A stretch of 20,578 bases of DNA from a virus, in the IMG/VR virus record IMGVR_UViG_3300031211_000487, positions 1 through 20,578 of that record, one strand, 5' to 3'. The notes beneath the pieces are model-generated. The model searched no databases. It was not told the DNA's origin and saw nothing but the letters and a program-made list of their open reading frames with translations. How positions within the stretch are numbered: position 1 is the stretch's first letter; every line of letters begins with the position of its first letter. Position numbers and translations under genes: made by a program. Positions 3,229 to 19,281 of this stretch are shown here, in pieces.

Positions 3229-4232
3229 TAAATTTAAATAAAAAATCTCTTACTAAAAATAATTTATTAAATCATGTTACAGATTTAGATATATTTAATT
3301 TCTATTCTGGTATGAATTTAAAAATAAACAAACCAATTTTATCACCATTAAGAAATGAAAAAAACCCTTCATTTTCTTTATTTAAAGGTAAAGATGGTAA
3401 TATTTATTATAAAGATTTTGTTTTAGGAGGAGGAGATTGTATTAAATTTGTTGAAAAAATGTTTAATCTTAATCATTTAGAAGCTTTAAGCAAAATAGTT
3501 ATTGATTTTAATTTAAAATATTATTTTGATCATAAACCTTTAAATAGAACTATTAATAAAAATTTTGTTAAAGTAGATAGAGATAAAGAATTAGATAAAG
3601 TACAAGAAAGTTATTTAAATATTAGAACTAGAAAATGGAAAAAATATGATATAAAATATTGGAATCAATTTGGTATAAGATTATATACTTTAAAATATTA
3701 TAATGTTGTCCCAATAGAATATATTTTTATTAATGATAATATTATTAAAGCTGATAAATATGCTTATGCTTATGTTGAAAATAAAGATAAAGAATATAGT
3801 TTTAAAATATATCAACCATTTAATAAAAAAATAAAATGGCTTTCTTCTCATAACGAAAGTGTATGGCAAGGTTGGAATCAATTACCAAATATAGGTTACA
3901 ATTTAATTATAACTAAATCTTTAAAAGATATAATGTGTATTAGAGAAGTTTCAGGATTTCCTAGTACAGCATTGCAAACAGAAAACATTATTCCTAAAGA
4001 AAATGTATTTAAAGAATTGCAAAAAAGATTTGAAAATTTATATCTTTTATATGATAATGATTATGATTCAGAAACAAATTGGGGCAGAGAATTTGGTAAA
4101 AAATTTTGTAAAGAATTTAATATTATTCAAATAGAAATTCCTGATAAATTTAAATCAAAAGATATTTCAGATTTTACAAAAAAATTTGGAATTAGAGAAT
4201 CAAAAAAATTAATAAATAAATTAATAAAATGA
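3225..4232 (+). CDS. DnaG-like DNA primase with TOPRIM domain, zinc ligands lost
   Basis: The first 80 residues follow the CHC2 module of DnaG: SPLRNEKNPSFSLF (40-53), then VLGGGDCIKFVEKMF (66-80). However, the positions that bind zinc in DnaG (C-x2-H and C-x2-C) are Ser40, Arg43 and non-cysteine residues. A TOPRIM-type region follows at 225-300: NLIITKSLKDIMCI, then TALQTEN, then LYLLYDNDYDSETNWG with the acidic pair D277/D279. The Glu of the usual first TOPRIM motif (EGxxD) seems to be Lys231. The length of 335 aa is that of a primase without a helicase domain. It probably makes RNA primers with the DnaB-like helicase upstream. Starts and stops overlap as ATGA on both sides. Confidence 0.8.
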   Translation: MINLNKKSLTKNNLLNHVTDLDIFNFYSGMNLKINKPILSPLRNEKNPSFSLFKGKDGNIYYKDFVLGGGDCIKFVEKMFNLNHLEALSKIVIDFNLKYYFDHKPLNRTINKNFVKVDRDKELDKVQESYLNIRTRKWKKYDIKYWNQFGIRLYTLKYYNVVPIEYIFINDNIIKADKYAYAYVENKDKEYSFKIYQPFNKKIKWLSSHNESVWQGWNQLPNIGYNLIITKSLKDIMCIREVSGFPSTALQTENIIPKENVFKELQKRFENLYLLYDNDYDSETNWGREFGKKFCKEFNIIQIEIPDKFKSKDISDFTKKFGIRESKKLINKLIK

Positions 4233-4633
4233 AAAAAAATGAATTAGTATTAATAGCAGTATATGGCAGTTTAATAAAAGGATTGTCTAATCATAATATT
4301 ATTGTAAATTCAAAATATGTAGGAGTATTTGAATCTAAACCTGAATTTACTATGATAAGTTTAGAATCTTTTCCAGCATTAATAAATAAAGGAAACACAA
4401 GTATAACATTTCATGTTTATGCTGTAGATAAAGATGTTTTTGATTCTGTTAATGTTTTAGAAGGTTATCGTGGAGAAAATAAAAATAATTTTTATGAGAG
4501 AGGTATTTTAAAAACTCCATTTGGTAATGCTTTTTATTACTATCAAAATAAAAGCAAATTAAAAGAAAATAATCCTATAGTAGCATCAGGTAATTGGTAT
4601 GATCATTATACAACACAAGTAAAAACTTATTAA
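4229..4633 (+). CDS. Gamma-glutamylcyclotransferase-like (AIG2/GGCT fold) protein
   Basis: The 134-residue protein has the family's substrate loop AVYGSLIKGLSNH (residues 10-22; YGSL at 12-15) and a central FDSVNVLEGYRG stretch in which E78 lies at the catalytic glutamate position, followed by YERG. GGCT-fold enzymes cleave gamma-glutamyl amides with release of 5-oxoproline; AIG2-like members also act on gamma-glutamyl amines. It starts inside the primase stop (ATGA, 4229-4232) and ends 1 base before the ATP-grasp gene. It is the first gene of an amide-bond cassette, where it may remove or trim the gamma-glutamyl group made by the ligases. The physiological substrate cannot be read from sequence. 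Confidence 0.8.
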   Translation: MKKNELVLIAVYGSLIKGLSNHNIIVNSKYVGVFESKPEFTMISLESFPALINKGNTSITFHVYAVDKDVFDSVNVLEGYRGENKNNFYERGILKTPFGNAFYYYQNKSKLKENNPIVASGNWYDHYTTQVKTY

Positions 4634-4634
4634 T

Positions 4635-5501
4635 ATGAAAAAGTACAAATTGTTTAGACCAAGAATTAGAAGTAGACATCCTTCTCATTCACAATTAAGA
4701 CCAAAATATAAAAAATTACTTTTATTACCATTTAGATCTATTATTAGATTTGGTTCTTTTACTGAATTAAAAGATAATGAAGTAAATAAAAAAAGAATTG
4801 AAGTTAATAGTGTTAGTTCTATTAAAAATAGTGCTAATAAGCTACTAATGAAACAAAAATTTGCAACTAATAATATAAAAACAGCAATTTGGTTTAAATA
4901 TAATAATAACCAACAATTGTTTATTGATCAAAACACAAATGAACAAATTAACATTAATGAATTACCTTATCCTATTATATCTAAACATATTAAAGGTAGT
5001 AGAGGTATTGGAAATGTAAAACATGATAATGTTGATGCTCTTCAAAGATGGATGATAAATAAAAATTTTAATAATTATATATTTGAAAAATATTATAATT
5101 ATGTTAGAGAATATAGACTTCATGTAGATTCTGAAGGTTGTTTTTATTCTTGCAGAAAAATGTTAAAATCAGATTCTCCACAAGAACACAGATGGTATCG
5201 TAATAATGATTATTGTGTTTGGATTATGGAAGATAATGACTTGTTTGATAAACCAGTAAATTGGGAACAAATAGAAATAGAAAGTGTAAAAGCTTTAAAA
5301 GCAGTAGGACTTGATGTAGGTGCTATTGATTTAAGAATTCAATCTGCTACTACTAATAATGAAGAAAAAAGGGAAAATCCTGAATTTATTATAGTAGAAA
5401 TTAATTCTGCTCCTAGTTTTGGAGACGTTACATTAGAAAAATATATAAAACAATTACCTAAAATTTTAAAAAGAAAAAAATATGAGTCAAGTAGAAACTA
5501 A
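4635..5501 (+). CDS. ATP-grasp carboxylate-amine ligase
   Basis: The 288-residue protein shows the ATP-grasp order: an N-terminal part with IIRFGSFTEL (36-45) and a helix NSANKLLMKQKFAT (65-78); the ATP-binding strand and glycine loop IISKHIKGSRGIGN (114-127) with K117; the adenine-side segment YIFEKYYNYVREYRLHV (148-164); VGAIDLRI (228-235) with metal-site D232; and the final FIIVEINSAPSFGD (251-264) with E255 and N257 as magnesium ligands. The family joins a carboxylate to an amine through an acyl phosphate. The positively charged N-terminus (RPRIRSRHPSHSQLRPK) is unusual and could bind an acidic or nucleic-acid partner. The gene overlaps the amidotransferase gene by 20 bases. The substrates are unknown. 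Confidence 0.85.
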   Translation: MKKYKLFRPRIRSRHPSHSQLRPKYKKLLLLPFRSIIRFGSFTELKDNEVNKKRIEVNSVSSIKNSANKLLMKQKFATNNIKTAIWFKYNNNQQLFIDQNTNEQININELPYPIISKHIKGSRGIGNVKHDNVDALQRWMINKNFNNYIFEKYYNYVREYRLHVDSEGCFYSCRKMLKSDSPQEHRWYRNNDYCVWIMEDNDLFDKPVNWEQIEIESVKALKAVGLDVGAIDLRIQSATTNNEEKRENPEFIIVEINSAPSFGDVTLEKYIKQLPKILKRKKYESSRN

Positions 5502-6213
5502 ATCAGCATTAATTGGATTATTAGGACATCAACATTCTGGAAGATTTAATCCTGGGTATGGTCAAAATGCAGCTTATGTAGAATATTTTAGACAATTTGG
5601 AGATGTTATAATTATTGATGCTCAATGTGATCAAGTAATTCCTGTAGATTTACTAGTATTACCAGGAGGTAGAGATGTAAATCCTATGAATTATAAACAA
5701 AAGCCATTAATAGGAACTCAATCTTCAGATTTAGAGTATGAGTGGTTTTTTGCAAATATGTTTGAAAAGTATTTAGAAAAAGCAAATAATAAACAAACAG
5801 CTATTTATGGTATTTGTGCAGGTTTTCAAAACATTATAGTACATAGTGGAGGCTCTTTACAACAAGAATATGCACAAAAGCAATCAAATGATTTTAGAGG
5901 AGAATTAGTTGATTTATTAAAGTTTAATAATAAAGTAATTCAAAAATATTCTAATATTAGAGAAGCTTATAATAAAGAAAACTATAATATAGATTTTAAA
6001 AAAACTAATTCTATTCATCACCAATCTGCTATACCTTCAGATATTACTAATGATTTTGATATTCTTGCTATTAATAAAGAATTCTTTAATGTAGAATTTA
6101 TTATTCATAAAGAATTGCCTATGGCTGCAGAACAATCTCATCCTGAAGAAAGGATTAATCCAATACTTACAGATTCAATAATTAATCAACTTTTAAATTC
6201 TTTGCAAAAATGA
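5482..6213 (+). CDS. Class I glutamine amidotransferase (peptidase C26-like)
   Basis: The 243-residue protein has the triad Cys-His-Glu of class I amidotransferases: oxyanion strand LLVLPGGRDVNP (57-68), nucleophile elbow YGICAGFQN (109-117) with C112, a SIHHQSA segment (177-183), and EQSHPEERI (217-225) with H220 and E222. Related enzymes hydrolyse glutamine to feed ammonia to a ligase or, as in the C26 group, cleave gamma-glutamyl bonds (PuuD type). PGGRDVNP and the HHQ segment favour the gamma-glutamyl-hydrolase branch. It overlaps the ATP-grasp gene by 20 bases and the next gene by 4 (ATGA), so stoichiometric production with the ligase is likely. Whether it makes ammonia or cuts a gamma-glutamyl conjugate is open. 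Confidence 0.87.
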   Translation: MSQVETKSALIGLLGHQHSGRFNPGYGQNAAYVEYFRQFGDVIIIDAQCDQVIPVDLLVLPGGRDVNPMNYKQKPLIGTQSSDLEYEWFFANMFEKYLEKANNKQTAIYGICAGFQNIIVHSGGSLQQEYAQKQSNDFRGELVDLLKFNNKVIQKYSNIREAYNKENYNIDFKKTNSIHHQSAIPSDITNDFDILAINKEFFNVEFIIHKELPMAAEQSHPEERINPILTDSIINQLLNSLQK

Positions 6214-6800
6214 AAAATTTATTAATTACTTCTAATAATAGAAGTACAGAGTTAGTAAAAAATTTTAAAAATTTTACTATATTGGATATAAATAATCAAA
6301 ATTTTTTAAATAATTTCTTTAATTTTATAGAGAATAATCCTCAATCAGCATTAAAAAATTGCATAATAGACAATTTATATGAGTTATTTACAAAAAATTA
6401 TTCCAGTCAAGTAATATCTATTTTATATAGAAATTTTCATACCAAAACAGTTTTATTTAAAGAAGACGATTATGACGTAATACAATCTAATTCATTTTTT
6501 TCTATACCTATTTATAAAGAATCTATTAACAATAAAATTAAAGTCTTTAAAATAATTAAATTAGTGGATAGATATTTAAAAAGTGATAAATCATTATTTG
6601 ATTCAAAATCAATTTGTTATTTTTTAGAAAAAAATATAAATGAAAACAGTTTTTATATAGATAAAATAGATAAAAATCAAAATTTTTTAACTATAAATAA
6701 ATCATTTAAAATAAACTCTTCTGAATGGAATTTTATATTTTCTGAAAATTTAGAAGAAAACAGTGATTTAATTTTAAACATTTTAAAAGAAACAATATGA
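6210..6800 (+). CDS. Unknown protein embedded in the amide-bond cassette (196 aa)
   Basis: The frame is joined by ATGA overlaps to the class I amidotransferase upstream (6210-6213) and to the first amidoligase downstream (6797-6800). The protein is rich in Asn, Lys, Phe and Ile with no signal peptide or membrane segment. MKNLLITSNNRSTELVKNF at the start and LKNCIIDNLYELF (48-60) look like strand-helix repeats of a Rossmann-like fold, but I recognise no catalytic motif. Two cysteines (C50, C135) are present. Its fixed position between two amide enzymes suggests a carrier, substrate-binding or scaffold role, by inference only. Confidence 0.7.
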   Translation: MKNLLITSNNRSTELVKNFKNFTILDINNQNFLNNFFNFIENNPQSALKNCIIDNLYELFTKNYSSQVISILYRNFHTKTVLFKEDDYDVIQSNSFFSIPIYKESINNKIKVFKIIKLVDRYLKSDKSLFDSKSICYFLEKNINENSFYIDKIDKNQNFLTINKSFKINSSEWNFIFSENLEENSDLILNILKETI

Positions 6801-7594
6801 GCATTATAAAAAAAGTAACAATAGGAGCTGACCCAGAATTATTTTTTATCAAAAATAATAAAGCTAAAAGTGTAGAAGGGTTAATTGGAGGAACTAAAGA
6901 AGACCCTATTCCTTTAGACAGAGAAGGATTTTTTCTACAAGAAGACAATGTAATGGCAGAATTTAATATTCCTCCTTCTAGAAATTCTCAAGAGTTTTCA
7001 GACAACATAGAATATGCTTTAGATAATATTGAAACTATTGCTAAAGTTAATGATTGTAAATTAGCAATTATTCCTTCTATGAAATTTGATAAAGAAGAAT
7101 TAAATTCTGAACAAGGTATGCTTTTTGGATGTTTAGCAGATACTAACGCTTATACTAGATATGAAAATCCTAGAGTAGAAATTAAAGAAAATATTAGAGT
7201 AGCAGGTGGACATATTCATATTGGATATGAGAATTCTGATACAGAAACTAATATTAAATTAATAAGAGCTTTAGATATCTTTTTAGGTTTGCCTTCTTTA
7301 GTTAAAGATAAAGATACAAAAAGAAGAGAATATTATGGCTCTGCAGGTTCTTTTAGAGAAAAAACTTTTGGAGTAGAGTACAGAGTATTGTCTAATTTTT
7401 GGATTAAAGATGAAGAAAGTAGAAAATGGGCATTTAATCAAGTAAAACAAGCAATAAATTTTATCAATTCTGGAAGTATGGACATGGTAGATATAAAAAC
7501 TTTAGCTCAAGTAAAGTTAGCTATTGATGATAATGATATATCATTAGCAATGTCATTAGAAGAAAAAATAATTAATAATTTTGTAATAAAATAA
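6797..7594 (+). CDS. Amidoligase, COOH-NH2 ligase type 2-like (first copy)
   Basis: The 265-residue protein matches the phage amidoligase family of the glutamine-synthetase/GCS fold: TIGADPELFF (8-17) with the metal-binding acidic pair D12/E14, MAEFNIPPS (53-61) with E55 and N57, GGHIHIGYE (137-145) with two histidines, and FGVEYRVLSNFW (191-202) with the basic residue that contacts phosphate. Family members are predicted to activate a carboxylate with ATP and condense it with an amine. Family proteins occur in phages such as the phiEco32 group. It follows the unknown gene by an ATGA overlap and precedes the class II amidotransferase by 4 bases. The acceptor is not known. Confidence 0.87.
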   Translation: MSIIKKVTIGADPELFFIKNNKAKSVEGLIGGTKEDPIPLDREGFFLQEDNVMAEFNIPPSRNSQEFSDNIEYALDNIETIAKVNDCKLAIIPSMKFDKEELNSEQGMLFGCLADTNAYTRYENPRVEIKENIRVAGGHIHIGYENSDTETNIKLIRALDIFLGLPSLVKDKDTKRREYYGSAGSFREKTFGVEYRVLSNFWIKDEESRKWAFNQVKQAINFINSGSMDMVDIKTLAQVKLAIDDNDISLAMSLEEKIINNFVIK

Positions 7595-7598
7595 AAAT

Positions 7599-9605
7599 AT
7601 GAGTGAGCAATTTATAATAGTATCAAGCATAATGTTAGTATTTTTAATTAGTGTTTTTATAGAAAATTTTGTTAGATTCTATAAACTACTTTTTAAGAAC
7701 CAAATAACAAAAAATACTACATTAAATTGTGGAATTTTTGCTTGGTCAGGAAATAGTAATGATAAATTTACTAAAGCAAAATTTGATATCTTAGGAATAT
7801 ATAATGATTCAAGAGGTGGAGATGGTTGTGGAATTTCTAAAAATTCTGAAATTATAAAAAATATTAAAAAAGATAAATATTTTAAAGATTTTTTAATTAA
7901 TAAAAATTATAATAATGATTTAGAAAACAATTATATAATAGGTCATACTAGAAACTCTAGTAAAGGTTTAAAAAATGAGGAAAATACTCATCCTTTTGGA
8001 TTTGGAGAAGACAAAAATAAAGGATATGAGTTTATAGGAGTACATAATGGTACTCTTTATAATGAAAATGATATTGCTAAAAAATATAAATGTAATAAAT
8101 TTAAAAATGATAGCAGTATTTTATTAGAAGCCATTTTTAATTCTAAAAGTTTTAAACCTTTAAGTGAATATTTAGGTGCAGCAGCAACAGTTTTTACTAA
8201 TACTAATGAACCTAATACTATTTATGCTTTTAGAGGGGAATCTAAAAAGTATAAGAATGATAAAAATACTGAAAAAGAAAGACCTTTATATTATTATCAA
8301 GAATCTAAAAACAGTCTTTATATTTCTTCAATGGAAGAATCTTTAATAGCTATTACTGAAAATGAAAAAGATATTGAAAAAATATTTGAATTTAAATTTA
8401 ATACAGTATATAAAATTAAAGATGGTAATGTAGAAAAAGCTGAAACTTTTAAAATTAGTAGACAAAAAATGACTCAAAGGATTCAATATAGTAATCATTC
8501 TAATTATAATAATGAAGTCCCAAATCATTGGAAAGAAAATAAAATATCTGATAATGTTGATAAAATTACTAGTAATTATAAAAATAGAAGAAGCAGAAGA
8601 TTAAAAAATTCTTCCAATGATACTTCTAATGTTTTTAAAATTAAAGATGAAGTAATTTCAAATAAAGATAGAAAAAGAAATAAAATTGTCTTTGAAAATT
8701 TTCTTTATAGAAGAAATGGTCATGTTACTAATGGTATATTTATATACACTAAAGAAGAGAAGTTTATTTATTTAGAAGAAGACTTAGTTGATGCATATCA
8801 AGTATTTTTTACTGATTATTTAGGTAAACCTTATGATAAAATTAGTGGTAAATTTAAAAAAAGTATAAGTGAAATAAAACATGAAGATTATTATATACCA
8901 TTTGATGCTAGAATATATAATGATTATGAAAATTATCCTTTTATTTATATTGTAGATGGAATAAGAGTAATTAGAAAAAGTGATTATAATGTTTTAAATA
9001 CTCAAAAAGCTAAAAATAGTTTAGATTTTATTGAAAAAGCTAGTTGGTGCGCTACTCACCCTATTTTAAATAGAAAAAGAGAAGCTATTAAAAATGGAAA
9101 TAAAATAGAATTTATGAGATTTAATCCTTTAAATTCAGATTTTATTTATACAATTGTAAATGGAAGTGTTACTACTAGAAAAAATAATTATTCAGATAAT
9201 TTTTTAAATGGGATAAAACTAGAAGATGAAATTATAACTGCAGATCAATATACTGGTAAAGTTATTAAATTAAATTCTATAAATGAAAAAGAAATTTCAA
9301 AATTTGATGAAATTACTTCAACATTATCTAATAAAGAAATAAATGAATTAAAAAGAAAAGGAAATGAAATAATTAAATTATTTGATTTAGAACCTTATAC
9401 TGAAAAAGAAAATGAAGAAACACTTGAAAAATTCTCATTTTTATTTAGTAAAATGGAAAATATGTATAATAAATACATGATTAGAAAAAGAGAATCTTTT
9501 AATAAAATTGAAGATTGTAATTATTCTAAACAAATGACTAGTGCAATTGATAATTTTGGTAAAGAACTTGAAGAAATTAATAATAATCTTTTAATAAATA
9601 GTTAA
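7599..9605 (+). CDS. Class II glutamine amidotransferase with membrane-spanning leader and unknown C-terminal half
   Basis: This is a 668-residue protein. Residues 6-24 (IIVSSIMLVFLISVFIENF) form a predicted membrane segment followed by basic residues, which suggests a cytoplasmic body. The Ntn-hydrolase amidotransferase domain starts at C44 (NCGIFAWSG) and continues with SRGGDGCG (71-78), IIGHTRNSSKG (113-123), THPFGFG (130-136) and FIGVHNGTLYN (145-155), that is all the glutamine-binding and oxyanion motifs. Class II enzymes need Cys at the mature N-terminus, and no ATG, GTG or TTG codon lies next to C44, so removal of a 43-residue leader (as in PurF or GltB propeptides) is implied. A charged linker (about 290-350) leads to an unassigned region with two long beta-rich parts and a helical tail. 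The gene lies between two amidoligases and probably supplies ammonia or transfers glutamine amide. Confidence 0.82.
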   Translation: MSEQFIIVSSIMLVFLISVFIENFVRFYKLLFKNQITKNTTLNCGIFAWSGNSNDKFTKAKFDILGIYNDSRGGDGCGISKNSEIIKNIKKDKYFKDFLINKNYNNDLENNYIIGHTRNSSKGLKNEENTHPFGFGEDKNKGYEFIGVHNGTLYNENDIAKKYKCNKFKNDSSILLEAIFNSKSFKPLSEYLGAAATVFTNTNEPNTIYAFRGESKKYKNDKNTEKERPLYYYQESKNSLYISSMEESLIAITENEKDIEKIFEFKFNTVYKIKDGNVEKAETFKISRQKMTQRIQYSNHSNYNNEVPNHWKENKISDNVDKITSNYKNRRSRRLKNSSNDTSNVFKIKDEVISNKDRKRNKIVFENFLYRRNGHVTNGIFIYTKEEKFIYLEEDLVDAYQVFFTDYLGKPYDKISGKFKKSISEIKHEDYYIPFDARIYNDYENYPFIYIVDGIRVIRKSDYNVLNTQKAKNSLDFIEKASWCATHPILNRKREAIKNGNKIEFMRFNPLNSDFIYTIVNGSVTTRKNNYSDNFLNGIKLEDEIITADQYTGKVIKLNSINEKEISKFDEITSTLSNKEINELKRKGNEIIKLFDLEPYTEKENEETLEKFSFLFSKMENMYNKYMIRKRESFNKIEDCNYSKQMTSAIDNFGKELEEINNNLLINS

Positions 9606-9610
9606 ATATT

Positions 9611-10738
9611 ATGTCAAACAAAGAAGTAACTACAATTACGGGAAAAAAAGAATTAAAAATTAATTGTAGAAAAATAGAAAATGAATACTATTTAATAGGA
9701 GATAGAAAAATAAAAGATTCTGGCGATTGCTATCCTATTAATGGTAGGTATTATAAAAATAATACTGATTATATTATCTATGACCATTTACATAAAAGAT
9801 ATGAAATTAATAATGTAAATTATGTAAAAGGAGTTGTTAATATTATTAGTAAAGATAAATTAGAAATAGGATATTTTTTAAATAATGATTTAATGACTAC
9901 ATTACGAGATGTTAAAACAAATTTTGTTTATTTTGTAATGAATTATTCTTTATTAGATGATACTAATTATGTTCTTAATAAAACTAGTAATATTTATTGT
10001 CATTATAGTAAATTGACTCCATTAAATATATTAAATTATAAAAAAATAGATTATGGATATAAACAAAGTTTAAATTATAACATTACTCCTGAAACTATAA
10101 AACTTGTTAAAGATAGATATTTAAATAATTTACAATATTTAAAAAAATATAATTTTTCTTATGGAATAAAAGAATATTTAAATGGACTTAGTTTTGGTGC
10201 AGAATTTGAAACAAGTAAAGGAGTTATTCCTAAAGAATATTGTTTAGCAAATGCATTAGTACCTCTTAGAGATGGGAGTATTAAAGGATTAGAATATGTA
10301 ACTTTACCCTTAGAAGGGGAAAAAGGTATTAATTCATTAATTAATAGTTCTAAATTAATTAATGAATATACTAGTTATGATGATACTTGTTCTTTTCATT
10401 TGCACTTAGGAAATGTACCAAGAACAGAATCTTTTATTGCTGCTTTATTTAAATTATCTTTATTTATTCAAGATGACATATTTAAAATGTTTCCTTTGTA
10501 TAAAAAAGATAATAGAGGGTATAAAAGAAAAAATTATACTGCACCATTACCAACTGTAGAATTATTATCTAAATTAGACAATAAAATTACACCTTCTAAT
10601 TTAAAAAGTAATTTTTCAAAAATATTTAATTATCTTTCTGATGGTAGAGATTATAATGAGTATAATAAAGAATTAAATTATGTAACTAATCACCCTAATG
10701 ATCCTAATAATACTAGAAAATGGAATATTAAATCACGT
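9611..10738 (+). CDS. Amidoligase (second copy), exon 1
   Basis: Exon 1 encodes residues 1-376 of a gene split by a group I intron; the frame meets a TAA at 10739-10741 only because the intron starts there. Residues 1-190 form a beta-rich, Tyr/Asn-rich region of unknown function (for example DSGDCYPINGRYYKN, 36-50). The amidoligase domain starts at LSFGAEFETSKG (193-204) with catalytic E198/E200, then PLRDGSIKGLEYVTLP (218-233) and SFHLHLGNVP (261-270). Joining base 10738 to 11632 keeps the frame (Arg376-Tyr377) and rebuilds the motif RYHWINF. The full product would be 573 residues. It is related to the Amidoligase_2 family of predicted ATP-dependent amide-forming ligases and starts 5 bases after the class II amidotransferase gene. 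Confidence 0.85.
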
Positions 10739-10819
10739 TAACAATATAGCGTAGTAATACAGTAATGTATTATAAAAAATATTGGGTGAATTCAAAGAAA
10801 GTCTTCATAAAATTAGGTT

Positions 10820-10862
10820 AATTGGAATATATTTTGTATGTTTGTATAAAAATATTCCAATT
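10820..10862 (+). promoter_or_regulatory. Hairpin ending at the endonuclease start codon
   Basis: A perfect 11-bp stem, AATTGGAATAT (10820-10830) with ATATTCCAATT (10852-10862), ends at the base before ATG 10863. It may be part of the intron P4-P6 domain, or it may hide the translation start of the endonuclease in the unspliced RNA, as known hairpins do in T4 intron ORFs. It also marks ATG 10863 as the likely start. Confidence 0.55.
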
Positions 10863-11447
10863 ATGAAAAAATTAAACATGAAAAAAGGTAGTTATACTAA
10901 TTACCCTTTTAAAAAGAATCAAGAAATTGATGGTATTATTATTTTAGAAAATGATTTTGTCTTTACTGAAGATAGATATTTTGTTAAATATGAATGTAAA
11001 TGTGGTAATATAGATTATAAACGTTTATCTCATTTACAAAAAATGAAATATAAAGTTTGTAAAAAATGTTCAAGGACTAATAAATATCCTGAACAAAGAA
11101 AAGCTAGAAATCATTTTGAAAATAATATACATAAACAATGGATTAAAAATATTAACTTTAATTTAAAAAGAGGTAATAGAATTTTAAAAAATAATTTAAC
11201 AAGTAAAGATTTATATAATCAAATTGTTAAACAAAATTTTAAATGTTATTACTCTGGAGTAAAATTAAATGTTGTTGATATATTTAAAAAAGATTCTAAC
11301 GGTTCTATAGATAGAATTGATTCAGATAAAGACTATACAGTTGATAATATACATTGGGTTTATAAACCTATAAATATTATGAAAAATGGACTTAATTCTG
11401 ATGTATTTATAGAAATGTGTGATTTAATTTCAAATTTTAAAAGATAA
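10863..11447 (+). CDS. Intron-encoded zinc-ribbon/HNH homing endonuclease
   Basis: The 194-residue protein (ATG 10863; the frame also reads back to a TTG at 10782 inside ribozyme P3, which is unlikely to be used) has a four-cysteine zinc ribbon at C45, C47, C66 and C69 (ECKCGN and VCKKCS). A KCYYSGVKL segment (127-135) follows, and then an HNH-type core with SIDRIDSDKDYTVDNIHWV (148-166) and INIMKNGL (170-177), including N162, H164 and N171. This layout is that of phage HNH homing enzymes which cut intronless alleles so that the intron is copied. It is nested in the intron that interrupts the second amidoligase and is best seen as a passenger of that mobile element. Confidence 0.88.
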   Translation: MKKLNMKKGSYTNYPFKKNQEIDGIIILENDFVFTEDRYFVKYECKCGNIDYKRLSHLQKMKYKVCKKCSRTNKYPEQRKARNHFENNIHKQWIKNINFNLKRGNRILKNNLTSKDLYNQIVKQNFKCYYSGVKLNVVDIFKKDSNGSIDRIDSDKDYTVDNIHWVYKPINIMKNGLNSDVFIEMCDLISNFKR

Positions 11448-11631
11448 TTTTGAGCTAAGCTTGTAGCTAAATGCTACTTGAAAGTGCAACGACTAGGTAT
11501 TGAAACTACATATGTAGAATATAATATACTCACGAGCGCCCAACATCCTACAGTCGGTAGGATGATGACATAGTCTGGACTATATGGAAACATATAGAAG
11601 TAGTAATTAAAAAAGCTACGATAACAATTCG

Positions 11632-12225
11632 TATCATTGGATTAATTTTGTACCTTTATTATTTGGTAATAAACAAACTATAGAATTTAGAATTCATACA
11701 CCTATTAAAGATCCTAATAAAATTATTTCTTTTTTATTGTTTTGTTCTAAATTAATTAATTTTACCAAACAAAATGAAGATTTAATTTTAAGTTCTGATA
11801 ATACTGAATATTTTGATTTACTAAATATTTTTAATTCTAAAACTAGTAACTATAAAGGCAGTAGAAAATTAGATTCAGAAGTTATAAATTATTATATACA
11901 TAGAAAAAATGCAACTAAATTATTTTCAAAAAATAATGATTATAATTATGATGAAAAAAAATTTTTATATGACCCAAAAATAGATTTTAATTATGAATAT
12001 AATACTTATTTTTTGAGTAAAGAACATTATGAAGAAAAAGAAAAATTAAAAAAAACTTTAGATTCAGAATTAGAAGCTTCAAGAACTGTAAATTCTTGGT
12101 TTCATAATGAAGAAGTTTCAGACCGTGAATCTGCAGCAATGAGAGCAATAAATAAAAGAATTAATCAATCATCTGGTCCAGCTTTAACAGTTCCGCTTTC
12201 CTCTTATATTTTTAGAGATGAATAA
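11632..12225 (+). CDS. Amidoligase (second copy), exon 2
   Basis: Exon 2 continues codon 377 of the gene starting at 9611. It opens with YHWINFVPLLFGNKQTIEFR (377-396), the conserved C-terminal motif of Amidoligase_2-like proteins, where TIEFR supplies the arginine that contacts ATP. An open frame without its own ATG runs from the splice site to TAA at 12223-12225; a TTG at 11737 in the same frame is not a plausible start because it would drop the motif. The remainder (about 420-573) is charged and helical, ending SSGPALTVPLSSYIFRDE. Both halves are intact, which argues that the intron splices and the enzyme is made. Confidence 0.83.
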   Translation, partial: YHWINFVPLLFGNKQTIEFRIHTPIKDPNKIISFLLFCSKLINFTKQNEDLILSSDNTEYFDLLNIFNSKTSNYKGSRKLDSEVINYYIHRKNATKLFSKNNDYNYDEKKFLYDPKIDFNYEYNTYFLSKEHYEEKEKLKKTLDSELEASRTVNSWFHNEEVSDRESAAMRAINKRINQSSGPALTVPLSSYIFRDE

Positions 12226-12260: not shown

Positions 12261-12968
12261 ATGAAAGTTAAATTAAATACTGAAAATAAATTTAAAAACT
12301 ATACAGAGAGTTTATTAGAATGGAATAAAAAATTAGTAAATCCTTTTAATAAAAATTATTTTAAGTTATTAGATACTTTTTTAAATAAAGGAAGTGCTCA
12401 AGGAAAATTTCATCATAAAACTAATGAGATTTTTAAAGCTTTTGAGTTTGTTGATCCTAATAATGTTCCTGTAGTTATTATGTCAGATACTTCACATATA
12501 TCTACAGGATTGCCTTATGGCAGTATGTTAACATCTACTGGTAATACAATGAATAATTGTATTGATCATATAGAAAATGCTATAGAAAGAGATTTAAGAG
12601 AAGGATTTAATATGAATTTTGACTCTTCTTTAGAATCTTGGGCAATGCAAAATGTATTATTATTAAATACTAATTATACATATGCTCCTGGATATGGTGA
12701 AGATTATAGTAAAATTTGGAAAAAGTTTAATACTAAAATAATTCAATCATTAAATATAAACAGAGTTGGAATACATTTTGTATTTTTAGGTAGAAAAAGT
12801 AACTATTACAATTCTTTAATAAATAAAGCAAAACATTGGACATATTTAGAAAATAGACCAGAAGAAAAAAAAAGTGAATTTAATGTAAAATTTATGAAAT
12901 CTATTAATGAAAAATTAAGAGATTCTAATGGTAAAGAATCAGAAATACAATGGCATAAATATATTTAA
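12261..12968 (+). CDS. Uracil-DNA-glycosylase-fold protein with altered active-site motifs
   Basis: The 235-residue protein follows family 1 UDG along its length: VPVVIMSDTSH (69-79) at the GQDPYH motif, TGLPYG (82-87) at the GLxF stacking site, SLESWAMQNVLLLNTNYTY (123-141) with the uracil-binding N136, IHFVFLGRKS (171-180), and FNVKFMKSINEKLRDSNGK (207-225) with the terminal IQW. The catalytic Asp (D76) and His (H79) of motif A are kept. The Pro-Tyr between them is Thr-Ser, and the HPSPLS loop is RPEEKK (199-204). In known UDGs the Tyr blocks thymine, and the loop His stabilises the leaving base. The enzyme may therefore be weak, non-catalytic or aimed at another base. It starts 35 bases after the amidoligase. 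Confidence 0.78.
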   Translation: MKVKLNTENKFKNYTESLLEWNKKLVNPFNKNYFKLLDTFLNKGSAQGKFHHKTNEIFKAFEFVDPNNVPVVIMSDTSHISTGLPYGSMLTSTGNTMNNCIDHIENAIERDLREGFNMNFDSSLESWAMQNVLLLNTNYTYAPGYGEDYSKIWKKFNTKIIQSLNINRVGIHFVFLGRKSNYYNSLINKAKHWTYLENRPEEKKSEFNVKFMKSINEKLRDSNGKESEIQWHKYI

Positions 12969-12991
12969 TTATAAATTAAATGCTTATTAAC

Positions 12992-13022
12992 TTGTATAAT
13001 ATAAATTTTTTTAGTATATTTG
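12992..13022 (+). promoter_or_regulatory. Bacteroidota-type promoter (TTG-N20-TATATTTG)
   Basis: TTG at 12992-12994 is followed after 20 bases by TATATTTG at 13015-13022, an exact match to the Bacteroidota -7 consensus TAnnTTTG with the proper distance from the -33 TTG. Transcription would start near 13029, just before the ATG at 13045. It lies in the only clear non-coding gap between the UDG-like and RusA-like genes. Confidence 0.7.
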
Positions 13023-13044
13023 TATTTAATTAAAAAAATTTATA

Positions 13045-13515
13045 ATGATTTTTATAGAAGGTAATGTGCCAAGTTTAAAAAATAGTAAAATTAAAACTAA
13101 TAGAGGAATATTTGCTTCCCCTACTGTTAATAAGTATATTAGAAAGCTAGGGATTCAATCTTTTAGTTCTAGTAAAAAAGAAATTAAAGGTTATGTTGAT
13201 ACTAAAAATAAGCCTAACATTTTTGCTAAAAAAACTAAAAACTTGAAAAAAGAGATTGAATCTAAAGGCTTTCCAATATTTATTGGATATCATCAAGTTA
13301 GGAAAACAAAAAGATTATTTGACTTTAGTAATAGTGTAGAAATAATACAAGATTTATTAACTGCTCATGATATTATTGAAGATGATAATGTAAAATTTGT
13401 ATTTCCTATACCAATGACAAAAAAAGGAAAATTACCAACTACTAATAATATTAGAAAAAAGGATTGGTACAGCGTAGATAAAGAAAATCCAGGAGTTTAT
13501 ATTAAAATATTTTAA
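13045..13515 (+). CDS. RusA-like Holliday junction resolvase
   Basis: The 156-residue protein begins FIEGNVPSLKNSK (3-15), the basic-hydrophobic start of RusA-type resolvases. It carries the acidic core KRLFDFSNSVEIIQDLL (89-105) and AHDIIEDDNV (107-116), in which D93, D103 and D113/D114 stand where RusA has its metal-binding aspartates. RusA dimers cut four-way junctions symmetrically, which phages need to resolve branched replication or recombination DNA before packaging. A Lys-rich insertion (about 41-75) makes it longer than E. coli RusA (120 aa). It is the first gene behind the promoter at 12992-13022. Confidence 0.8.
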   Translation: MIFIEGNVPSLKNSKIKTNRGIFASPTVNKYIRKLGIQSFSSSKKEIKGYVDTKNKPNIFAKKTKNLKKEIESKGFPIFIGYHQVRKTKRLFDFSNSVEIIQDLLTAHDIIEDDNVKFVFPIPMTKKGKLPTTNNIRKKDWYSVDKENPGVYIKIF

Positions 13516-16646: not shown

Positions 16647-17666
16647 ATGGAAAAACAGATGATGACAGAAAAAAACAAAGAAACACAACAAAATAATATA
16701 TTTAAAAAAAGAGTAAATATTTTACCTTATGAATATCCATCTTTATTAAAATATAAAGATGCAATTAGACATTCTTATTGGTTAGAATCAGAATTTAATT
16801 TTACTTCTGATATTAGTGATTTTAAAACTAAAATTACTGAAGTAGAAAAAGAAGCTATAAAAAGAACAATGCTAGCAATTGCTCAAATTGAAGTTAGTGT
16901 TAAGACTTTTTGGTCTGATTTATACAAAAGAATGCCTATTACAGAAATAGGAGATGTAGGGATGACTTTTGCAGAATCAGAAGTAAGACATAAAGATGCT
17001 TATGCAAAACTATTAAGAGTTTTAGGATTAGAAAAAGATTTTAAAGGATTAGTAGAAGTTCCTGCAATTAAAGATAGAATAAGTTATTTAACAAAATATT
17101 TAGATGGCACTAGAAGTAAAGATAATAAAATGTTTACAAAATCAGTTTTATTATTTTCTTTATTTATAGAACATGTAAGTTTATTTAGTCAATTTTTAAT
17201 AATGATGTCTTTTAACAAAAAGAAAAATCTTTTTAAAGGTATTTCTAATGTAGTAGAAGCTACAAGTAAAGAAGAAGATATTCATGGTAATTTTGGAGCG
17301 GAATTAATTAATATAATTAAATCTGAAAATCCAGAATGGTTTGATGAAACATTTGAAGAACTTATAAACTCAGCATGTGAAAAAGCATTTGAAGCTGAAT
17401 GTAAAGTTTTAGATTGGATTTTTGAAAAAGGAGAATTAGAATTCTTAAATAGAAACACTATTGAAAATTTTATAATGAATAGATTTAATAATTCATTAAA
17501 TAAAATTGGTATGGATAAGATATTTAAAACAGATTCTGATGAACTTGAAAAAACAATCTGGTTTGATGTTGAAACAATATCTAGTAAAGAAGGAGATTTC
17601 TTTTACAAAAAAGACATAAATTATAATAAAAAATCTAAAAGCGTTACAGAAGATGACTTATTCTAA
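16647..17666 (+). CDS. nrdB: Class I ribonucleotide reductase, small subunit (NrdB)
   Basis: The 339-residue protein has the full diiron site: E82 in AIAQIEVSVKTF (77-88), E112 and H115 in ESEVRHKDAY (110-119), E175 in FIEHVSLF (173-180), and E210 and H213 in EEDIHGNFG (209-217). Y119, four residues after H115, matches the radical tyrosine Y122 of E. coli NrdB. The C-terminus ends TEDDLF, like the peptides with which NrdB binds NrdA. It makes the tyrosyl radical that NrdA uses to reduce ribonucleotides to deoxyribonucleotides, which supports phage DNA synthesis. It overlaps nrdA by 14 bases, so equal synthesis is likely. Confidence 0.93.
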   Translation: MEKQMMTEKNKETQQNNIFKKRVNILPYEYPSLLKYKDAIRHSYWLESEFNFTSDISDFKTKITEVEKEAIKRTMLAIAQIEVSVKTFWSDLYKRMPITEIGDVGMTFAESEVRHKDAYAKLLRVLGLEKDFKGLVEVPAIKDRISYLTKYLDGTRSKDNKMFTKSVLLFSLFIEHVSLFSQFLIMMSFNKKKNLFKGISNVVEATSKEEDIHGNFGAELINIIKSENPEWFDETFEELINSACEKAFEAECKVLDWIFEKGELEFLNRNTIENFIMNRFNNSLNKIGMDKIFKTDSDELEKTIWFDVETISSKEGDFFYKKDINYNKKSKSVTEDDLF

Positions 17667-19281
17667 AAATTATTGGTTAAATGATGAAAGTAGATTATTC
17701 TTAAAAAGAGGTTATTTCAATGAAACAGCTGAAGAAAGAATAATTCAAATGGCATATGCAGCAGAAAAAAGACTAGGAATACAAAATTTTGCAGAAGATT
17801 TTATATCTCACACAGAAAATGGATTTTATAGTTTTAGTACGCCAGTATGGATAAATTTTGCAAAAAATAAAGGATTACCTATTGCATGTTATGGATCAAA
17901 TATTGATGATTATTCAGACAGTATTCTAAATGCAAATAGAGAAATAGGTATGATGTCTAAATATGGAGGAGGTACTTCTGCTTATTTAGGAAATATTAGA
18001 AAAAGAGGTAGTAAAATATCTTCAGGAGGAGAAGCAGATGGACCAGTTCATTATGCTAGAATGTATGATACAGTAATTGATGTATTTAAACAAGCAGATT
18101 CTAGAAGAGGTTCTTGTGCAGTATGGCTACCTATTGAACATTTAGATGTTGATGAGTTTTTAGATATTAATACAGAAGGAAATTTAATACAAAATTTACA
18201 ACATGGTTTAACTATTACTGATCAATGGTTAAAAGAAATGAAAGAAGGAGATAGTGCTAAAAGAAAAATTTGGGCAAAAGTTATTGAAAAAAGAGGAGAA
18301 ATTGGACTTCCTTATCTTATGTTTAAAGACAATTCTAATGCTAATACTCCTTATAAAGAATTAGGAAGAGAAATTACAGCTAGTAACTTATGTTCTGAAA
18401 TTCAATTACCTACTAATAGTTATGAATCATTTGTATGCTGTATTGGCTCAATTAATTTGCTACATTGGGACAAAATTAAAGAAACTAATGCAGTAGAAAT
18501 TTACACACAATTTTTAAATGCAGTTTTAGATGAGTTTATTGAAAAAGCTGAACATTCAAAAGGAATGAAAAGAGCTTGGAGATTTGCTAAAAATCATAGA
18601 GCAATTGGTGTAGGTACATTAGGATATCATTCCTATTTACAAAGTAAAATGATTGAATTTGAATCATTAGAAGCAAAGCAAAATAATTATCAAATTTTTA
18701 AAACTTTACAAGAAAGAACTAATAAAGCTAGTCAAGATTTATATAATTTTGACAAGAGAAAATATTCTTGTTTAAGAAAAGGATTTGCTAACACAACTTT
18801 AATGGCAATTGCTCCTACTAAATCTAGTTCTTTTATTTTAGGACAAACTAGTATGGGTATTGAACCAATTAAATCTAATTATTTTGTAAAAGATTTAGCA
18901 AAAATTAAAAGTGTTTATAAAAATCCTTTTTTAAAAGCTCATCTTGCTAAACATGATATGGATAGTCCAGATATTTGGGAAAGTATTTTGCATAAAGATG
19001 GTTCAGTTCAGCATTTAGATCTTCCTAATAAAGAAGTATTTAAAACATTTATGGAAATTACTCCTAAAGAATTAATTTTACAAGCTGCTCAAAGACAAAA
19101 ATTTATTGATCAATCACAATCATTAAATTTATTTATACATCCTTCAATATCTACTAAAGATGTTAATGCATTGTATTTATATGCACATGAAGAAGGAATT
19201 AAAACTTTATATTATCAATTTAATGAGAGTTCTGCTCAAGCTTTTAGTAGAAATATACTTGATTGTAAAAGTTGTGAATAA
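17653..19281 (+). CDS. nrdA: Class I ribonucleotide reductase, large subunit (NrdA)
   Basis: The 542-residue protein begins directly with the catalytic barrel; no N-terminal ATP-cone is present. The active site is visible: C79 in PIACYGSN, the N-x-C-x-E triad N245, C247 and E249 in SNLCSEIQLP (244-253), C262/C263 in VCCIGSINL (261-269), the radical-transfer pair Y520-Y521 in KTLYYQF, and the redox tail DCKSCE with C538 and C541. With NrdB it reduces NDPs using the tyrosyl radical and reductant-fed cysteines. Lack of the ATP-cone means no dATP switch of the usual kind, so the phage can run dNTP synthesis past normal control. A terminator follows. Confidence 0.93.
   Translation: MTYSKNYWLNDESRLFLKRGYFNETAEERIIQMAYAAEKRLGIQNFAEDFISHTENGFYSFSTPVWINFAKNKGLPIACYGSNIDDYSDSILNANREIGMMSKYGGGTSAYLGNIRKRGSKISSGGEADGPVHYARMYDTVIDVFKQADSRRGSCAVWLPIEHLDVDEFLDINTEGNLIQNLQHGLTITDQWLKEMKEGDSAKRKIWAKVIEKRGEIGLPYLMFKDNSNANTPYKELGREITASNLCSEIQLPTNSYESFVCCIGSINLLHWDKIKETNAVEIYTQFLNAVLDEFIEKAEHSKGMKRAWRFAKNHRAIGVGTLGYHSYLQSKMIEFESLEAKQNNYQIFKTLQERTNKASQDLYNFDKRKYSCLRKGFANTTLMAIAPTKSSSFILGQTSMGIEPIKSNYFVKDLAKIKSVYKNPFLKAHLAKHDMDSPDIWESILHKDGSVQHLDLPNKEVFKTFMEITPKELILQAAQRQKFIDQSQSLNLFIHPSISTKDVNALYLYAHEEGIKTLYYQFNESSAQAFSRNILDCKSCE

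Follow-up and report, generated by a model that had tools for sequence, protein, structure and literature searches.

What would a virus do with seven adjoining genes whose products make and break amide bonds? The question is raised by the IMG/VR record IMGVR_UViG_3300031211_000487, a virus contig of 20,578 bases which we have analysed as a whole and call the window. Its G+C content is about 20–29% in 1-kb steps and its main genes lie on the + strand. Positions 4229–12225 hold genes for a gamma-glutamyl cyclotransferase, an ATP-grasp ligase, a class I and a class II glutamine amidotransferase (GAT) fold, two amidoligases and a protein without assigned family. This is the crAss-like (Crassvirales) version of a phage amidoligase or 'peptidoglycan modification' cassette which has already been described. 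Tentatively, and a little short of an even chance in our judgement, we read it as a small non-ribosomal amide-bond pathway, most likely acting on a cell-envelope peptide precursor.

A linked cassette of amide-bond enzymes

The seven genes run head to tail with spacings of +1, −20, −4, −4, +4 and +5; a first-pass annotation, made from the sequence alone, had correctly reported a contiguous run with gaps of at most 5 bases or overlaps of 4–20. The six families which it had named are all confirmed by Pfam and PHROGs, in kind and in place, but the seventh gene is not one open frame: it is split by a group I intron. The genes are:

4229–4633, + strand: GGCT/AIG2-like gamma-glutamyl cyclotransferase with YGSL motif and catalytic Glu78 (PF06094 3.4e-12; phrog_2520 2.3e-18)
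4635–5501, + strand: RimK-like ATP-grasp ligase (phrog_2599 1.8e-32; TIGR00768, the RimK family of NCBIfam, 6.6e-11, below cut-off)
5482–6213, + strand: class I GAT-fold protein of the Peptidase C26 (PuuD/SpuA) type (PF07722 7.7e-17)
6210–6800, + strand: 196-aa protein without assigned family (no Pfam match, no convincing PHROG match)
6797–7594, + strand: phiEco32-type COOH-NH2 ligase type 2 (AL2), a glutamine-synthetase-like amidoligase (PF14395 4e-14; phrog_3815 4.6e-74)
7599–9605, + strand: class II GAT, whole gene (PF13522 6.5e-9)
9611–12225, + strand: amidoligase (Amidoligase_2-like), whole gene (phrog_2443 6.3e-26)

Are these genes inherited as a unit? After collapsing at 90% identity we had 94 loci, and in 57 of these the flanks reach 6 kb or more on both sides. 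The class II GAT and the amidoligase occur together with AL2 (present by construction, since nearly all loci were retrieved through it) in all 57 non-redundant loci, the ATP-grasp ligase in 54, the GGCT protein in 45 and the C26 protein in 38. The core is kept as a unit, though its order varies, with 14 distinct orders. Scattered genes or mostly broken active sites, which the first-pass annotation had named as evidence against a pathway, are not what we find: in each family (52–94 sequences) the residues expected for catalysis are conserved, and the window cassette has them intact.

Some neighbours are more constant than others. The class II GAT and the amidoligase are adjacent in 56/57 loci and 13/14 distinct orders, in both orientations (within-order shuffle, P = 5e-5), the C26 protein adjoins AL2 in 35 of its 38 loci and 7/8 orders (P = 0.005), and GGCT lies next to the ATP-grasp ligase in 6/10 orders (P = 0.11); the gene orders share ancestry, so that the shuffle values are guides and not strict probabilities. 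The first adjacency suggests a pair of ammonia donor and ligase. In one locus (L125) the GGCT and C26 domains are fused in a single protein. We also considered that GGCT and the C26 hydrolase might replace each other: at least one of them is present in 55/57 loci, about 53 being expected by chance, which is not significant.

In the GGCT protein Y12, G13, L15 and E78 are intact and 100% conserved across 68 sequences. The same full conservation is found for K69, E159, R161, K175, D232 and E255 of the ATP-grasp ligase, whose PDB profile matches include cyanophycin synthase, RimK and alpha-L-glutamate ligases; it probably ligates glutamate or other amino acids. AL2 scores above the PF14395 cut-off (52.9 vs 25 bits); the proposed link with phiEco32-type amidoligases is correct. 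Its residues D12, E14, D50, E55, H139, R187, E194 and R196 are 100% conserved and H141 reaches 97% (94 sequences). The C26 protein has an intact triad C112, H220 and E222; it departs at otherwise conserved positions, with A113 in place of R and K133 and K151 in place of H. Its PDB profile matches (3fij, 7d4r and 6vtv, the last one PuuD) show that its nearest solved relatives by sequence are of the Peptidase C26 kind. In the PuuD equivalog test (NF008471) it obtains 15 vs 266 bits: it belongs to the same superfamily and is not filed as PuuD. The two amidotransferase folds announced by the first-pass annotation are there, but for the class I gene we prefer a probable gamma-glutamyl hydrolase to a second ammonia donor.

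The 196-aa protein belongs to a family confined to near-identical contigs. Its slot between the C26 and AL2 genes is occupied in the relative L002 by a protein of 222 aa (6340–7008) with negligible similarity to the 196 aa of the window; the gene in this slot is perhaps hypervariable.

Members of the cassette have been met before. A seven-gene 'peptidoglycan modification cassette' was hypothesised to prevent superinfection, with resource recycling also mentioned (PMC5498523); peptidoglycan modification was proposed as well in PMC10580990, and the same families occur together in UFV-P2 (PMC3890496). The cassette noted at first is already published as a unit, with peptidoglycan modification as its hypothesis. 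That its product is undefined agrees with the literature, where we found no report of a tested function or a defined product. A prediction of 2009 is cited by the later papers, and more than 300 sequenced phage records have the ligase.

Like the cassettes of phiEco32, LUZ24, PaP3, tf, RIO-1 and PSA-HP1, that of the window has a core of GGCT, RimK-like ATP-grasp, COOH-NH2 ligase type 2, amidoligase and class II GAT (PMC3890496, PMC5498523). It also shares with the phiEco32/LUZ24/RIO-1 type the clustering on one strand near the primase gene. It differs from them by its gene order, by the added PuuD/SpuA-like class I protein and unassigned gene, by an amidoligase with about 190 extra N-terminal residues and an intron, and by a membrane leader on the class II enzyme. 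Podovirus cassettes have an extra gene (phrog_4877/phrog_11055) between the two ligases: it is conserved in 35 podovirus-type loci (for example L040 9808–10425 and L042 8170–8739) and was not found in crAss-like cassettes.

The Cellulophaga phage phi14:2, a member of Crassvirales, has matches to 12 window proteins with 27–51% identity and the order kept: g2442, primase, GGCT, ATP-grasp, ligase, class II GAT and amidoligase, followed by uracil-DNA glycosylase, RusA, exonuclease, the next gene and the small subunit of ribonucleotide reductase. Both phi14:2 and cr108_1, also of Crassvirales, have the succession primase, (GGCT), ATP-grasp, ligase, class II GAT, amidoligase and uracil-DNA glycosylase. 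In phi14:2 the class II GAT has a leader as in the window, whereas the class I and unassigned genes are absent; cr108_1 lacks GGCT and the leader but has the class I gene. Neither of them shows the amidoligase intron. From the gene order and the homologues in common with these two phages we assign the window to the crAss-like group. Its host is probably a member of Bacteroidota, because of the relationship with phi14:2. Pfam and PHROG scans of the 20.6-kb contig recognised no structural genes (Crassvirales capsid, portal or terminase signatures). The nearest relative with all six cassette families is L002, with cassette proteins 42–67% identical; L001, L003 and L047 are near-identical fragments.

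In a set of 50,697 phage records, 315 encode the phiEco32-type ligase; laboratory phages of E. coli and Pseudomonas are among them. Bacterial homologues are found at 7 loci in 84,980 genomes: four of them (L049, L050, L051 and L053) hold other cassette genes, the other three are lone divergent ligases with no clear context. Plasmids gave no hit. A contig of a deltaproteobacterial metagenome-assembled genome (L055) has two lone divergent phiEco32-type ligases, at 7989–9092 and 12284–13441, with clamp-loader, SSB and helicase genes nearby; no other part of the cassette is there.

The glutaminase, its leader and its partner

The class II gene is divided into two parts:

7599–7727, + strand: N-terminal leader of 43 aa, a hydrophobic helix with a basic C-side, which ends directly before Cys44
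7728–9605, + strand: glutaminase domain (from Cys44) and C-terminal beta/helical region without recognised acceptor domain (PF13522; Foldseek)

Foldseek aligns the protein with the glutaminase domain of GlmS (1xff, E = 2.8e-10, TMt 0.69), and C44, R118, H149, N150, G151 and D171 are conserved. The match is limited to the glutaminase part of GlmS, PurF and AsnB; therefore the acceptor of ammonia is probably another protein. The model of the whole protein has a low overall confidence (pTM 0.46).

The spliced product of the adjacent amidoligase gene matches Amidoligase_2 (PF12224) with E = 0.0019, below the cut-off, and 18/18 relatives match this family. The PDB matches listed for the structure model of the amidoligase (pTM 0.73) belong to the glutamine synthetase / gamma-glutamylcysteine ligase superfamily, each of them weak (E > 0.001); the structure models were built on 18–19 sequences. 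A sequence search found no solved structure for either amidoligase. For the N-terminal domain of this long amidoligase we considered an origin in the gene that separates the two ligases of podoviruses, or a domain in common with the C-terminus of the glutaminase; profile comparison supported neither idea.

The leader is real and recurrent. AlphaFold gives a helix at residues 3–33 and a loose linker of low confidence at 33–42. Leaders are present in 16 of 84 non-redundant cassettes; most of the others start with Met-Cys and a few have other short extensions. All 16 fall among the 44 cassettes of the crAss-like-bearing half of the tree, with none among the 40 of the other half, and well-supported branches force at least five gains or losses. 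In 15 of the 16 leaders the charge is larger on the C-side of the hydrophobic core than on the N-side, as in the positive-inside rule; in L048 both sides are equal. Leu is found two residues before Cys in 13/16. No leader-like N-terminus was found among the members of the other five cassette families. We discarded a lipoprotein signal: Leu is at −2, position −1 is mostly N, S or F, a basic stretch separates the core from Cys, and the lipobox [LVI][ASTVI][GAS]C is absent. Such a hydrophobic, positive-inside leader directly before the catalytic Cys of the glutaminase is apparently new.

Class II GATs require a free N-terminal Cys, so that processing of the leader may be inferred; E. coli glutamate synthase and Bacillus PurF carry propeptides. 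As the leader precedes such a Cys and is missing in 28/44 crAss-side relatives, it may be a removable propeptide and not a lasting membrane anchor. Since it comes and goes among relatives it cannot be essential to the chemistry. A bolder idea, which we hold to be improbable, is that the crAss-like glutaminase is a membrane-tethered proenzyme, cut exactly at the catalytic Cys, and that it acts as a pair with the amidoligase to amidate, at the inner membrane, a lipid-linked precursor of the envelope. A ligase of this sort, encoded by a phage, activated at the membrane and channelling ammonia, would have no counterpart known to us.

One group of cassettes (L065, L069, L072, L078, L088, L008, L011 and L067) has, after the amidoligase, a second class II GAT-like protein of a different kind, with N-terminus MCL, MCI or MCV.

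Possible reactions and products

How could these enzymes work together? The amidoligase is the constant neighbour of the glutaminase and looks glutamine-synthetase-like from weak but consistent matches, the C26 hydrolase adjoins the other ligase, and the ATP-grasp protein is RimK-like. This suggests amidation by one pair and attachment and removal of gamma-glutamyl groups by the rest, a logic which is fairly well supported. We infer the following reactions, complexes and substrate. The class II enzyme would hydrolyse glutamine and pass ammonia to the adjoining amidoligase, which would amidate a carboxylate. The phiEco32-type ligase and the RimK-like ATP-grasp enzyme may join a gamma-glutamyl group, or another amino-acid unit, to an amine on the same substrate. 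The PuuD/SpuA-like hydrolase and the cyclotransferase would remove gamma-glutamyl groups, either deprotecting an intermediate or stripping a linkage of the host itself. The substrate would most likely be a peptidoglycan stem peptide precursor, changed early in infection, and the hydrophobic leader may bring the class II enzyme to the inner membrane face, at least until it is processed.

Linkage of these enzyme families across phage groups, including phiEco32, LUZ24, RIO-1, phi14:2 and cr108_1, supports a pathway. A cell-envelope peptide as its target is our best guess, of moderate strength. It follows from the reasoning of earlier authors, from the leader and from the isolate hosts, which are diderms among the AL2 and ATP-grasp matches listed, in a biased sample of hosts. 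Glutaminase-coupled ligases which amidate peptide carboxylates are known in MurT-GatD and AsnB/LtsA. The pair proposed here would work in a similar way, with an ATP-dependent ligase that looks glutamine-synthetase-like. With the two pairings, glutaminase with second amidoligase and hydrolase with first ligase, and with the leader, what was a list of domains becomes a set of specific reactions and complexes open to test. If the envelope is the target, the cassette would be a new way for phages to remodel the infected cell.

Several points weigh against an envelope precursor. Pfam finds in the cassette no domain specific for peptidoglycan precursors, such as a Mur ligase, nor an asparagine-synthetase domain. 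Most relatives have no leader, and Ntn-type maturation would remove it. The cassette sits among replication and nucleotide genes, which would equally fit a metabolic role. Amidoligase and GGCT genes also occur together in phages of Gram-positive hosts (PMC11318856, PMC5513430). In the literature we found no experiment on the cassette.

A soluble product is possible, although we think it unlikely. The enzymes would form and cleave a gamma-glutamyl amine, such as that of a polyamine or an amino acid, as in the puu/spu pathway or as a removable protecting group, and this metabolite would aid replication or block defence. PuuD pairs with PuuA, and GGCT proteins cleave gamma-glutamyl amines. The window has in the same way a C26 protein resembling PuuD/SpuA hydrolases beside a glutamine-synthetase-like ligase; the cleavage known for GGCT proteins and the fusion in L125 go in the same direction. 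However, such a pathway alone leaves the class II glutaminase, the second amidoligase, the RimK-like ligase and the membrane leader unexplained, C26 and GGCT are found in only a part of the loci, and the PuuD equivalog cut-off is far off. Another difference from puu/spu is that we recognised neither a polyamine oxidoreductase nor an aminotransferase. A product that blocks defence, as had been imagined at first, received no pointer from the tests made; PADLOC, which holds defence and not counter-defence proteins, gave no match.

Modification of a protein appears still less probable: a protein of the host or of the phage would receive glutamate or other residues from the RimK-like and amidoligase enzymes, and the hydrolases would trim these residues. 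The ATP-grasp match to the RimK family agrees with it, and it was proposed for such ligases in other phage ATP-grasp families (PMC4431377). However, tagging does not need an ammonia-producing enzyme, and clustering of unlabelled genes gave no small co-conserved carrier or substrate protein in crAss-like cassettes, where the first-pass annotation had advised looking for one.

Could the cassette move amide nitrogen, or recycle glutamyl compounds, for nucleotide synthesis? It lies between the genes for primase and uracil-DNA glycosylase, upstream of those for dUTPase and ribonucleotide reductase, and the resource recycling mentioned in PMC5498523 would agree. We consider it quite unlikely, as a specific product is indicated by the presence of three ATP-dependent ligases and by the strict way in which ligase, glutaminase and amidoligase are inherited together. 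Hypermodification of DNA with amino-acid groups is very unlikely: amide-forming enzymes could decorate modified bases, and among the viral fold matches of the glutaminase there is one with the name 7-cyano-7-deazaguanine synthase, but this match covers the common glutaminase domain, and in the window we recognised no gene for base hydroxymethylation, for a kinase or for another pre-modification step.

The group I intron and the surrounding genes

The amidoligase gene has the following parts:

9611–10738, + strand: exon 1, with the N-terminal beta domain and the presumed active-site residues E198, E200, H263 and H265 (phrog_2443, alignment, splice ends)
10739–11631, + strand: group I intron (Rfam RF00028; joining of the exons restores the conserved frame)
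10782–11447, + strand: HNH / endonuclease VII-like homing endonuclease reading frame inside the intron (phrog_1035 5.2e-13, phrog_3322, phrog_3118)
11632–12225, + strand: exon 2, with the RYHW..E-x-R motif and the C-terminus (alignment with relatives)

Exon 1 ends in T and the intron ends in G; the junction CGT|TAT is in frame at a conserved place, just before the E-x-R motif. The predicted spliced protein has 573 aa and aligns through the junction (RYHW) with relatives that have no intron: it reads KWNIKSR-YHWINFVPLLFGNKQTIEFRIHTP, the consensus of the intron-free relatives being KWNIRTR-YHWVNLIPLLFGNKQTVEFRIHTP. Splicing restores the RYHWINFVPLLFGNK..EFRIHTP motif of the uninterrupted relatives. 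Residues E398 and R400 of the conservation analysis are numbered on a splice guess of 577 aa and stand three lower in the 573-aa product. The intron is apparently self-splicing. With the 3' part scanned alone, RF00028 is found at 11440–11597 with 54.6 bits (gathering score 50, E = 1.5e-13), and the score falls to 45.9 bits when the whole intron including the reading frame is scanned. A Rfam scan of the entire window did not detect it; only short stretches scanned alone revealed RF00028, so that whole-locus Rfam scans of the relatives say little.

Cassette genes look like repeated targets of homing elements (L079 6910–7111, L076, L111, L077, L014, L053, L044 and L026). The C26 gene is split in L076, L079 and L111: in the first two at the same profile position, in L111 at nearly the same one. 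L079 has a weak group I match. A split amidoligase is found in L077 and apparently in L014, and a ligase in three parts in L053; a group I intron scan of the gene gaps of L053 and L077 gave no match. In the E. coli phage Bas89 the ligase gene is in two parts with an HNH gene inside, and in L026 an HNH gene lies between the ligase and the GAT.

Outside the cassette, a uracil-DNA glycosylase-like protein is encoded at 12261–12968 (NCBIfam 1.4e-23, under the cut-off; Pfam gave no name). The gene at 631–1497 encodes a radical SAM protein that belongs with the spore photoproduct lyases (TIGR03886 3.7e-89, under the cut-off), 81% identical to its L002 counterpart; it is a possible viral repair enzyme for DNA photoproducts. 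The ribonucleotide reductase proteins (16647–19281) have merely 31–34% identity with those at the corresponding place of L002, where several other replication proteins reach 61–78%; they have therefore probably been replaced from another source.

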